Below, in pieces: positions 1 through 3,088 of a DNA stretch of 64,000 nucleotides. This DNA comes from Bacteroidetes bacterium ADurb.Bin012 (lineage in GTDB: Bacteria > Bacteroidota > Bacteroidia > Bacteroidales > TTA-H9): positions 62,001 through 126,000 of the forward strand of contig MWFC01000001.1 of assembly GCA_002071415.1 (NCBI GenBank), in the 5' to 3' direction. Below the pieces are notes generated by a model. The model did no database searches. It was not told the DNA's origin and worked only from the letters and a program-made list of their open reading frames with translations. Each line of letters begins with the position of its first letter. The stretch's first letter is position 1. The position numbers and the translations under genes were made by a program.

Positions 1-2851
1 TCCCAGTTTCAAAGCCATTTGCAGGAATTTTTAGTGAGGCATAGTATTTACTATCTGATTCAAAATAGAATTTATTCCCAGTCTCTTTTTTTATTTCACC
101 AGGTATGGCTAACTCATTATCCATTGGTATGGGTTTGAAATTTATTTTTGGGATGGCTTTTTTAACATGATTGTTTTCATCAACGATAAGATAATGAATA
201 GTTGGTTCGCTTTCGTTTATATTTAAATCATTCAAGGGAATATCGGTTATAGGTTCACTAAGAATATCGTTTAGTCCCCATAATCGGCGTAAATCGGCTA
301 TAAGTTGGCCAGGGAATGACCTAACGTCGTCGCATATTTCCCTTAAGATTTGTACTGATTTTTTGCTGATATAACGTGTGTCGTTGAGTTGTCGTTGAAT
401 AAAATCGTCAAGCATAGCGGGTTTTTTTGAAGTAAAACGCCTTGCTTTTTTATAGGGCAAGATTTGGAAGACTCTTTGCTCGATTTCTTCCCATGAATCA
501 GCATTCCATAAAGATTTACTACTGTTTTTTAAATAAAACTGATAAGGTGTCAATTCACCTTTCGAACGATTGAAATTGGCTTCACATAGAGTTTTATTTC
601 CGAATGAATCGTCTAAACTAACGGAATAGGGTATAATATGTTCAATTTGGAAAAAATTATGAGGCCCAAGCAAATCGGAAAGGCGAATGGTTTTACCCGT
701 ATAGGGACAGATTACGATACCATTTTTCTGTTCGATTTCACTATAAAGTAGATACTTAATGATGTTATCACGTGAAGGTTTTAAGCCTGCTTCAATGATT
801 CTTTCGCGAGCTTCCTTATTTTTTTGTTCATTAATTGCATTTTCTTTTCTGATTTCCTGTCGCCTTTTTTTATTGTTTTTCAAATCGCGTCCAACCTCAA
901 CATGGATGCGATCAAAACAGAAATCTGGCCCAAATTCGGGCATACTACGATATTTTTTCAGTAGATAATTTACGAGCCGGCGCATTTCATTTAGCCCAAT
1001 TTGGACAAGTGGATTTCTTAAATTCTCGACAGGTGAAATGTAATCTCCCTTTTTCTCTGGACCTACCTCCCGACTGGGATGGTATAATTTTAAAAAGGCT
1101 TTATCATTAGGGTTAAATCCAAAATTATTAACAGTGCTCGAAAGGTATTCTTTTATATTCTGAATAATTTCGCCTTCATGATATTTTTTGCCATTGCAAA
1201 GATCTTTGATAAATTGTTCTATATCACTATGATAATCTTTAAAATATTCCCATCTGCTGCCAAAAGTGTTTTTGATCCCTCCAAGCAAGACGGCTTGTTG
1301 AAAAATAAATCCCTTTTCAAGGAAAGGCAGTATGTTATGAATAGCTTTTAATGAGATTGATGCATACCCATCTTCAAGTGTAATTTTTGCGCTTTTTTGG
1401 GCTTTTTCTTCAGTGAAATGGTATTTTTTTATGAGCCGTTGGGTCAAAAGTTCTTCATCTTCAAAAAACATGAAATCATGCCATATTTCATGTTTATTCT
1501 GCACCCATATCTCAGTAGGAAACAAACTTTTTAATTTTTTTATAGTAGGACATCCAGAAACTTTTTGGTCTGCATCGTAATTGAAATATTCATTTTGCAG
1601 CTTTAAGGCATCAATAATAACTTTAAAGTCGAAAACTTTATCCTGATATGATATTACATTTAAAACAGTTTGCCGCTGACTAGCATCAAGCGGTTGTTCC
1701 TTTCGACCGTATCGTATATTATTTATCAATTGCCATGCTCTATATAGTTCGAAATCAGGATGAGAAATTGGACAAGGGGTAGGCCCGGTTTCTATCCATT
1801 TGTTGGTAGTTTTATCAAACATTATTCTCTTTTCGAAAGTACATTTTGACAAAAGATGTTTTTGTGATCTTAATGGCCGTTGCCAGAATAAAAGACTATC
1901 CTGACTTCTATATAATATTTCATGAGTTTCGTCATTAATTTCGATTCGTCCCCCAAAAAGAGTTTTTAAGGAGATCTGTTGTGCAACTTTTATGGTTTTC
2001 CCAGTAATAGTAACATTCTCAATGCCATATTGCAAGTAAATTTTATTGATTCTTTGCTTATTTCTTTCAGAATCATTATTCCCAGAAAGATGAAAGGATT
2101 TGAATATCGTAACAGTTTTATCATTTAATCCTAAATGTGGAGCTTGTTTTTCCCAAATAGCATGAAATTCCTTAACATACATTTCTCTTAAGGTATATCG
2201 GTTACGGGCTCTTAGCGGACGTCTATTCTCATCAGTTCTGTAGATATAAGTCTGATGCTCGGGAAGAATCATTTCATACAAAGTAGTTCCAAGAGTTTTA
2301 TTATAACCAATTTCTTTCTCGGTCTCGAGTATACCAATGGTATTATTTTCCCCTTGATAAATCTTTCCTGAATCTTTTCCTTTTCGACTACTGTAAAAAC
2401 CCCTTCTCTGAATAAAATGATAAAAGATTCTTCCGAGTTGTTCTAAGCTTAAATCTTCTTCTAATGCTTTTTTCCGCAATGCGTAAGGATTCATTTTCAA
2501 CCATTCTATAAACTCAGGATCATTTGGAAACTTTCTTCCATCCGATTTCAATTCATTGTTCCAATTTTTCCATTTTTTCAATGAGTTTAATGATAAGGGG
2601 CACATTTTAAGAGGGATCAATGTCTCAAGTAATTTGATCTTACTTAATCTTTTTCTGTAATAATGTCTCCTGAGTTGTCTTTTTTCTCTTCTCTGTGCAT
2701 TTTTTGAAGTCTCTTTTTCCCCCTGTCCTAAATTTTCTACTCCTTCAGGGAAAATTCTAACCCCGCAGTCAATAATTGACGCTTTTTCATCATCTACAAC
2801 TGCCCATCCAATGCTATTGACTCCTAAATCGAGTCCAAGGATTTTGCTCAT
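1..2851 (-). CDS. cas9: CRISPR-associated endonuclease Cas9, type II-C-like (partial, C-terminus beyond window)
   Basis: RNA-guided DNA endonuclease of a type II CRISPR system. About 950 residues are readable from ATG 2851 with no stop before the left edge. Domains in order: RuvC-I at the N-terminus (LGLDLGVNSIGWAV, Asp8); an Arg-rich bridge helix at about residues 55-75 (QRREKRQLRRHYYRKR); the recognition lobe with QRRGFYSSRKGK near 160 and RARNRYTLREMY near 215; RuvC-II with Glu652 (HVEVGRDLK); and HNH with a CPYTGK motif, His738 (IEHIIPYS) and Asn761 (NFNRSKGELTPYQ). After HNH come RQLNDTRYIS and LRRLWGL, then a stretch that does not yet reach RuvC-III, which fits the large Bacteroidota Cas9s. 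The residue before the HNH His is Glu where SpyCas9 has Asp. All catalytic residues seen are intact. RuvC-III and the PAM-interacting domain lie outside. Subtype II-C is inferred from lineage and architecture. Confidence 0.96.
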   Translation of the reverse strand, partial: MSKILGLDLGVNSIGWAVVDDEKASIIDCGVRIFPEGVENLGQGEKETSKNAQRREKRQLRRHYYRKRLSKIKLLETLIPLKMCPLSLNSLKKWKNWNNELKSDGRKFPNDPEFIEWLKMNPYALRKKALEEDLSLEQLGRIFYHFIQRRGFYSSRKGKDSGKIYQGENNTIGILETEKEIGYNKTLGTTLYEMILPEHQTYIYRTDENRRPLRARNRYTLREMYVKEFHAIWEKQAPHLGLNDKTVTIFKSFHLSGNNDSERNKQRINKIYLQYGIENVTITGKTIKVAQQISLKTLFGGRIEINDETHEILYRSQDSLLFWQRPLRSQKHLLSKCTFEKRIMFDKTTNKWIETGPTPCPISHPDFELYRAWQLINNIRYGRKEQPLDASQRQTVLNVISYQDKVFDFKVIIDALKLQNEYFNYDADQKVSGCPTIKKLKSLFPTEIWVQNKHEIWHDFMFFEDEELLTQRLIKKYHFTEEKAQKSAKITLEDGYASISLKAIHNILPFLEKGFIFQQAVLLGGIKNTFGSRWEYFKDYHSDIEQFIKDLCNGKKYHEGEIIQNIKEYLSSTVNNFGFNPNDKAFLKLYHPSREVGPEKKGDYISPVENLRNPLVQIGLNEMRRLVNYLLKKYRSMPEFGPDFCFDRIHVEVGRDLKNNKKRRQEIRKENAINEQKNKEARERIIEAGLKPSRDNIIKYLLYSEIEQKNGIVICPYTGKTIRLSDLLGPHNFFQIEHIIPYSVSLDDSFGNKTLCEANFNRSKGELTPYQFYLKNSSKSLWNADSWEEIEQRVFQILPYKKARRFTSKKPAMLDDFIQRQLNDTRYISKKSVQILREICDDVRSFPGQLIADLRRLWGLNDILSEPITDIPLNDLNINESEPTIHYLIVDENNHVKKAIPKINFKPIPMDNELAIPGEIKKETGNKFYFESDSKYYASLKIPANGFETG

Positions 2852-2969
2852 AATTGATTAATTTTTAAATTATTAGATTTAATTTTAGATTTCTGAGTGT
2901 GGTTTGTCCAGTTAATACCTTTGTTTTCCTTAGAAGATGGGTTAAAATTAAATATTTTTTATGAAAGTG

Positions 2970-2996
2970 TTGCATAATAAAAAAGTTGTATCTTTG
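2970..2996 (+). promoter_or_regulatory. Promoter of the tracrRNA (Bacteroidota -33/-7)
   Basis: TTG at 2970-2972, a 16 nt spacer, then TATCTTTG at 2989-2996, an exact match to the Bacteroidota -7 consensus TAnnTTTG. It predicts transcription starting near 3001-3004, exactly where the anti-repeat begins. Confidence 0.75.
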
Positions 2997-3001
2997 TTGA
3001 C

Positions 3002-3088
3002 GAAGATTATTCCAATCTTATCTTATCACAACAAGGCTATATGCCGAAGGACTTAGTCCTATGCCCCTGCTTCGGTAGGGGTTTTTTT
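3002..3088 (+). ncRNA. tracrRNA candidate of the type II CRISPR system
   Basis: Trans-activating RNA that would pair with crRNA repeats and load Cas9. From 5' to 3': an unstructured anti-repeat at about 3002-3032 ending in TTATCACAAC; a short nexus-like hairpin GGC(tatat)GCC at 3035-3045; a second hairpin AGGAC(tta)GTCCT at 3048-3060; and a terminator at 3064-3088. A repeat beginning GTTGTGATAAGATAAGATTG is predicted from the anti-repeat. GTTGTG is a common start of Bacteroidota II-C repeats as I recall them. It is transcribed divergently from cas9, whose start is 150 bp away. The repeat itself is not in the window, so pairing cannot be confirmed here. Confidence 0.82.
3064..3088 (+). terminator. 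tracrRNA terminator with UUCG loop
   Basis: A 7-bp stem CCCCTGC/GGTAGGGG-type (3064-3070 with 3075-3081, one G-U pair) capped by a C(UUCG)G tetraloop and followed by seven T. It is an intrinsic terminator and forms the last hairpin of the tracrRNA. Confidence 0.85.

Follow-up and report, generated by a model that had tools for sequence, protein, structure and literature searches.

The stretch analysed here, called the window throughout, comprises 64,000 nucleotides (nt) of Bacteroidetes bacterium ADurb.Bin012 (contig MWFC01000001.1; C1:62001-126000 within a 2.64-Mb genome of 154 contigs). Its left edge carries the larger part of a gene for the nuclease Cas9 of a CRISPR (clustered regularly interspaced short palindromic repeats) system, together with a divergent module for a trans-activating CRISPR RNA (tracrRNA). 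From cas9 downstream, to the left of the window, the gene order continues with cas1 (294 amino acids, aa), cas2 (118 aa) and the CRISPR array. Judged by sequence, the locus is a complete subtype II-C CRISPR-Cas9 system of a Bacteroidota bacterium, very probably one of the Bacteroidales, otherwise ordinary for II-C and as such of known type, while a five-module insertion in RuvC-III is what sets this II-C Cas9 clade apart. The features of the cas9 gene are the following (positions without a prefix are those of the window):

2-2851, minus strand: cas9, first 950 of 1543 codons (TIGR01865, expect value E 2.6e-135); the frame continues to the left.
G000:C1:60220-64851 (L002:10220-14851), minus strand: whole cas9, frame uninterrupted to 1543 aa.
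2828-2830, minus strand: RuvC-I catalytic Asp8 (LGLDLG), invariant in the alignment.
896-898, minus strand: RuvC-II catalytic Glu652 (IHVEVGRD), invariant in the alignment.
542-709, minus strand: HNH domain, aa 715-770 (Pfam HNH_4, E 5.3e-19).
638-640, minus strand: HNH catalytic His738, invariant in the alignment.
569-571, minus strand: HNH catalytic Asn761, invariant in the alignment.
254-409, minus strand: first piece of RuvC-III, aa 815-866 (Pfam RuvC_III, split in two).
Left of the window, minus strand: second piece of RuvC-III, aa 1157-1245 (Pfam RuvC_III), with HHAIDA at aa 1178-1183.
1-265, minus strand: start of the insertion, aa 863-950 of about 863-1168, a half module and then the first tandem module (from the alignment with insertion-free relatives and from internal repeats).
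About L002:11348-12265, minus strand: whole insertion, the remainder lying left of the window.

The full-length protein matches TIGR01865 with an E of 2.8e-150, and both RuvC_III and HNH_4 score above their cut-offs. The first-pass annotation of the window had read Asp8, Glu652, His738 and Asn761 as intact and had expected a protein of more than 1200 residues with an insertion between HNH and RuvC-III. Sequence and alignment confirm the four residues at those positions, the protein reaches 1543 aa, and the insertion amounts to about 300 aa. It had also proposed extending the contig leftwards, and there the HHAIDA motif of RuvC-III, cas1, cas2 and an array of 51 repeats were all present, with no stop or frameshift left of position 1, the array nearby, and a repeat that pairs with the anti-repeat.

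The assignment to subtype II-C rests on gene-content, Cas1, tracrRNA and repeat criteria. The locus is placed there because it combines cas9, cas1 and cas2 with a Cas1 that belongs to a type II family (TIGR03639, cas1_NMENI; score 299.7 bits, cut-off 120; Cas1_II in the labelling of PADLOC), with repeats of 36 nt and spacers of 30 nt, and with a tracrRNA encoded divergently, and because neither csn2 (the II-A marker) nor cas4 (the II-B marker) was found among the scanned neighbouring genes; the original description of the Cas9 as type II-C-like thus stands. The nearest solved structures in a sequence search of the PDB appear to be II-C Cas9s. Subtype II-D, defined by a Cas9d profile score above its cut-off and a locus with cas4, does not fit: the profile gave 94 bits against a cut-off of 375, and cas4 was not found. 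The array, in which 50 of the 51 repeats are identical and the last differs by one change, has the repeat GTTGTGGTTTGATAAGAAATTGGAATAGAAGACATT, and 44 of its 50 spacers are 30 nt long:

C1:55518-58855 (L002:5518-8855): CRISPR array, 51 repeats of 36 nt and 50 spacers.

The tracrRNA module lies divergently from cas9 and consists of these elements:

2989-2996, plus strand: predicted Bacteroidota promoter -7 element TATCTTTG, an exact match to TAnnTTTG.
3003-3088, plus strand: tracrRNA (start approximate), from its duplex with the array repeat and a layout that is the same in related loci.
3008-3032, plus strand: anti-repeat, part of the tracrRNA.
3035-3045 and 3049-3059, plus strand: tracrRNA hairpins.
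3064-3081, plus strand: terminator hairpin, followed by a T run (T7) at 3082-3088.

The repeat and the anti-repeat form a duplex of 23 base pairs with an energy of -28.6 kcal/mol, interrupted by a bulge and by an internal loop of two by two nt. For 1000 shuffled repeats the mean was -11.4 and the best value -24.3 kcal/mol. In 13 related loci, the strongest pairing with the local repeat likewise falls in a module divergent from cas9. Moreover, the middle of the repeat varies widely across these loci and the anti-repeat co-varies with it, the GGCUAUAUGCCG core remaining nearly constant; such compensating changes are stronger evidence for a functional tracrRNA than any one energy value. The promoter element, anti-repeat, hairpins, terminator and repeat pairing agree with the complete divergent module that had been proposed from the window. 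The repeat start predicted at the same time, GTTGTGATAAGATAAG, complements the anti-repeat at every position, and so proved wrong around the internal loop and correct elsewhere. Taken as a working system, Cas1 and Cas2 would store 30-nt spacers, the array transcript would pair with the divergent tracrRNA as a dual guide, and the 1543-aa Cas9 would use this guide to cut matching DNA through HNH and RuvC.

In this protein, 440 aa separate the HNH motif from HHAxDA, against 133-196 aa in those insertion-free relatives where both motifs could be located. Alignment with the relatives places the roughly 300 extra residues between WGLN and the KKNRxDxRHHAxDA segment. Within them, four full repeats of about 55 aa stand in tandem, flanked on the N-terminal side by the second half of a further repeat and on the C-terminal side by the first half of another, and the whole is counted as five modules; the halves were assigned by eye, and profile hits in some members support the N-terminal one. 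The repeats share the pattern N-x-x-x-h-x-G-x-V-x-x-x-x-F ... D-G-K-Y-W-x-x-h-x-h ... N-E-x-P, and every pair of them is matched by HHalign with a probability of 96.3-98.7%, compared with at most 3.4% for windows elsewhere in the same proteins.

Insertions of this kind were found in 19 Cas9s, collected in one genome-contig scan (84,980 species) and in genome samples; the scan gave no match with a single-protein query and yielded the relatives with a pair-alignment query. Full-length frames with the insertion measure 1483-1565 aa, two of the 19 being cut by contig or locus ends. The carriers belong to the Bacteroidales and Flavobacteriaceae, including Gelidibacter maritimus, Saccharicrinis, Carboxylicivirga and Prolixibacteraceae, and in the order of the window 12 of 393 sampled genomes have the insertion, including one with no more than a fragment at a contig end. 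When the insertion columns were excluded, all 18 insertion members in the tree formed one clade with support of 97/97, in agreement with an earlier tree of 12 members. One member, L129, is strongly diverged, three of its repeats being clear and the others weak. No module was found in proteins other than Cas9 (samples of 396, 395, 393 and 297 genomes, partly overlapping), no relative was found in viral contigs, and no description of the insertion was found in the open-access papers searched.

As for the origin of the modules, the sister clade (L047-L058, L070 and L085, mostly Flavobacteriaceae) has none, with only 22-23 aa from RxxWG to HHAxDA, and an Ignavibacteriales Cas9, L062, has a single module at the same site, with a score of 19.2 bits where the best of 988 scored shuffles reached 8.1. 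The cas9 gene of L062 is broken in the assembly into two overlapping frames. L062 and a second Cas9, L005, branch close to where the five-module and no-module groups separate, a placement which is not firm, and forms with two to four modules were not found among the loops of the relatives. One module in L062 and none in the sister clade point to tandem amplification. Furthermore, for 73 of 76 units the most similar unit is one at the same module position, identity being 35% within a position and 23% between positions in one protein; the duplication of the module therefore predates the spread of the clade. On these sequence comparisons, the most probable history is a single origin of the module at this site and its expansion to five copies in the ancestor of the clade, a number that has not changed since. 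The series is read here as growth from one to five, and loss in the sister clade is also possible.

The insertion is at the same time the least conserved region of Cas9, with a mean identity of 36% against 46-66% in the other regions, and by this measure is the fastest-evolving part of the protein. This divergence fits a rival explanation, namely that a tandem duplication in a tolerant loop was fixed by drift and remains a passive surface decoration on an enzyme that works as other II-C Cas9s do. That the insertion-free sister clade retains the same locus layout and 36-nt repeats agrees with such an origin. Nevertheless, the length from WGLN to HHAxDA has been kept at 307-322 aa in the 18 measurable members despite their wide divergence, each module position retains its own identity in the 73 of 76 units, and the modules keep their invariant G, Y, F and P positions, so that mere decoration is a possible but doubtful account.

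AlphaFold2 models of the insertion are confident and rich in beta structure, both for a stretch of 320 aa (predicted local distance difference test, pLDDT, 82.9; predicted template modelling score, pTM, 0.62) and for a 111-aa piece of two modules (pLDDT 85.7, pTM 0.69). A pooled single alignment of all the repeat windows, intended for folding, was dropped because the windows appeared out of register. Foldseek searches with the models, covering solved structures and viral structure models, gave no significant match in the PDB (best E 0.2 and 0.4) or among the viral models, and searches of Pfam, PHROGs and PDB sequences with the insertion gave no convincing family, PHROG 32621 weakly matching five insertion members (best E 0.0013). 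A five-bladed beta-propeller, which four repeats and two halves had suggested, was considered and set aside, as the AlphaFold2 models had no significant propeller match. The predicted fold of the module is possibly undescribed, although for so small a module the lack of a Foldseek match is not proof of a new fold.

Comparison with known Cas9s underlines the position of the extra mass. The best PDB sequence hits are presumably those of the Nme1Cas9/GeoCas9 group. This group shares RuvC-I, RuvC-II, RuvC-III and HNH, a cas9-cas1-cas2 locus, a 36-nt repeat and a tracrRNA with the present system, but its proteins have about 1080 aa against 1543 here, where the recognition (REC) region is also longer. 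The sister clade (e.g. Lutibacter, Tenacibaculum and Polaribacter) is the closest Cas9 group, with very similar repeats (GTTGTGGTTTGATTAAAGATTAG...) and a similar locus layout, and differs in its short, module-free loop and in full-length open frames of 1096-1161 aa. CbCas9 of Chryseobacterium (1442 aa, PDB 8wmh series) is likewise a large Bacteroidota II-C Cas9 with an alignable HNH/RuvC-III core; its extra length, however, lies before HNH, since residues 689-868 of our protein align to its residues 795-986. PcrIIC1-associated II-C Cas9s are defined by a PIN-domain PcrIIC1 gene in the locus (PMC13153721), and whereas CbCas9 is paired with PcrIIC1, no PIN-domain gene of this kind was found among the scanned neighbours of our locus. 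Fp2Cas9 of Flavobacterium psychrophilum (1548 aa; PMC12609912) is a II-C Cas9 of nearly equal total length; its HNH residue E868 places the extra length before HNH, and it has no reported RuvC-III insertion. Thus, the other long Bacteroidota Cas9s compared, CbCas9 and Fp2Cas9, carry their extra length before HNH, unlike this clade.

The position of the insertion gives a first indication of what it may do. In SpCas9, K974 and R976 stand six to eight residues before HHAHDA. Mutations of these two residues affect only non-target-strand cleavage (PMC5680257). By homology, the five beta modules, sitting in the loop just before HHAxDA, would stand beside the entrance of the non-target strand to the RuvC site. 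The net charge of the insertion is -3 to -11 in 19 of 19 Cas9s, all of them basic in the remainder of the protein. Nucleic-acid binding is common among small beta modules, and the insertion could be an additional domain that grips either the guide or DNA, in the latter case the non-target strand or the flanking duplex, a proposal that also draws on its adjoining the RuvC-III segment which handles the non-target strand in SpCas9 (PMC5680257). The negative net charge, set against an otherwise basic protein, speaks against general nucleic-acid binding, and the models matched no nucleic-acid-binding fold; this role is regarded as unlikely.

Since the insertion is both negatively charged and fast diverging, it would rather face a protein than nucleic acid, the candidates being the HNH linker, a partner in the host and an inhibitor made by phages. 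A protein-facing role, whether in regulating the movement of HNH and RuvC, in docking a partner or in shielding the enzyme from inhibitors, is the preferred proposal, although held tentatively. A narrower form of it, in which the insertion serves specifically to shield Cas9 from the anti-CRISPR proteins of phages or to act as a decoy for them, would suit a surface loop adjoining the catalytic site that diverges quickly relative to the rest of the enzyme; fast divergence equally fits weak constraint, however, and this sub-case seems distinctly unlikely.

Concerning activity, the uninterrupted frame and the catalytic residues are consistent with an active nuclease, which had been suggested from the window, and the gene sequences contain nothing that speaks against one; one spacer of the array does stand against it. 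Spacer 15 matches chromosomal rpiB of the host at 30 of 30 positions (contig C61, L158:9757-9786; 3' flank CCCTCTTTTA). C61 resembles the window in composition (tetranucleotide r 0.97) and the assembly contains just one copy of rpiB, so that the self-match is apparently genuine; assembly contamination is 3%, and C61 may be foreign. Given the match, the system may be tolerant of the target, blind to it, or inactive. A system decayed or inactive in this strain is nonetheless considered very improbable: besides the intact 1543-aa frame with its complete catalytic residues, the repeats are identical in 50 of 51 cases, the tracrRNA is conserved and cas1 and cas2 are intact, and the flank CCCTCTTTTA may simply lack a protospacer-adjacent motif (PAM), or the contig be foreign.

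The reading as a whole, a complete II-C locus with a dual-guided Cas9 and a five-module insertion of one-time origin, is held with good confidence, and the protein-facing role of the insertion within it tentatively. The sequences show the anatomy of the locus, the catalytic residues, the pairing of the guide, the homology of the modules and their distribution in a single clade; nuclease activity, the place of the insertion in the folded enzyme and its role are inferred from these. Several points weigh against it: the rpiB match just described and the states of the system that it allows; the loop of L005, similar in length to that of L062, whose module match is weak (5.1 bits, reached by 18 of 967 scored shuffles); the placement at the RuvC entrance, which would follow from homology to SpCas9; and the net charge, which leaves room for a local basic patch.

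Searches for protospacers covered phages, plasmids, the genomes of relatives and viral sequences. All spacers together gave only a chance-level hit in phages, to a low-complexity spacer; five exact or degenerate viral scans with the spacers gave no usable protospacer, and four related arrays gave nothing convincing against phages. Spacer 25 matches 28 of 30 positions (L159:3001-3030; E 0.3, possibly by chance) in a tape-measure gene, with the 3' flank ATCGAGTTC; the gene lies on a circular element of 51 kb from Bacteroides finegoldii that is recorded as a plasmid. No PAM consensus was obtained from the two doubtful flanks, CCCTCTTTTA and ATCGAGTTC. Two spacers of the array, 24 and 40, are nearly the reverse complement of each other (about 93% over 27 nt) and read KYEQWVDAM in one frame; their probable target is a single conserved phage gene, matched by each on a different strand. 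Duplication within the array is suggested by spacers 19 and 20, which are adjacent and identical, and by spacers 11 and 14, whose lengths differ by a single base.

The surroundings of the locus and its relatives add some further observations. Past the array, the sole gene with a family assignment adjoins its far end and encodes a PRiA4_ORF3-like protein (L002:4704-5330, minus strand, Pfam E 3.5e-51); as a PRiA4_ORF3 and not a PIN protein, it was rejected as a candidate PcrIIC1. In L040 and L132, the array is placed between cas9 and an inverted cas2-cas1 pair, the other loci being collinear. Some related loci have a short gene by cas9, mostly between cas9 and cas1, with HYIYNRG-like or MPNHFH-like motifs known from IS200-like or REP-associated transposases, and only that of L039 passes the Pfam Y1_Tnp cut-off:

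L039:13888-14430: short gene by cas9.
L042:8786-9322: short gene by cas9.
L046:11575-12279: short gene by cas9.
L048:14885-15472: short gene by cas9.
L131:7946-8479: short gene by cas9.
L132:10865-11503: short gene by cas9.

In this clade, then, the extra mass of Cas9 is a repeat array by the RuvC active site, and the series of zero, one and five modules makes its origin traceable. It is conceivable, if doubtful, that the clade acquired a regulatory or shielding domain of five duplicated beta modules at the mouth of RuvC, which would control non-target-strand cleavage or block phage inhibitors. The insertion-free relatives provide templates for its deletion, and Gelidibacter maritimus F6074, a named and sequenced strain, is among the carriers. 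If the array modulates non-target-strand cutting, fidelity or inhibitor resistance, it would represent a natural add-on control domain for Cas9.

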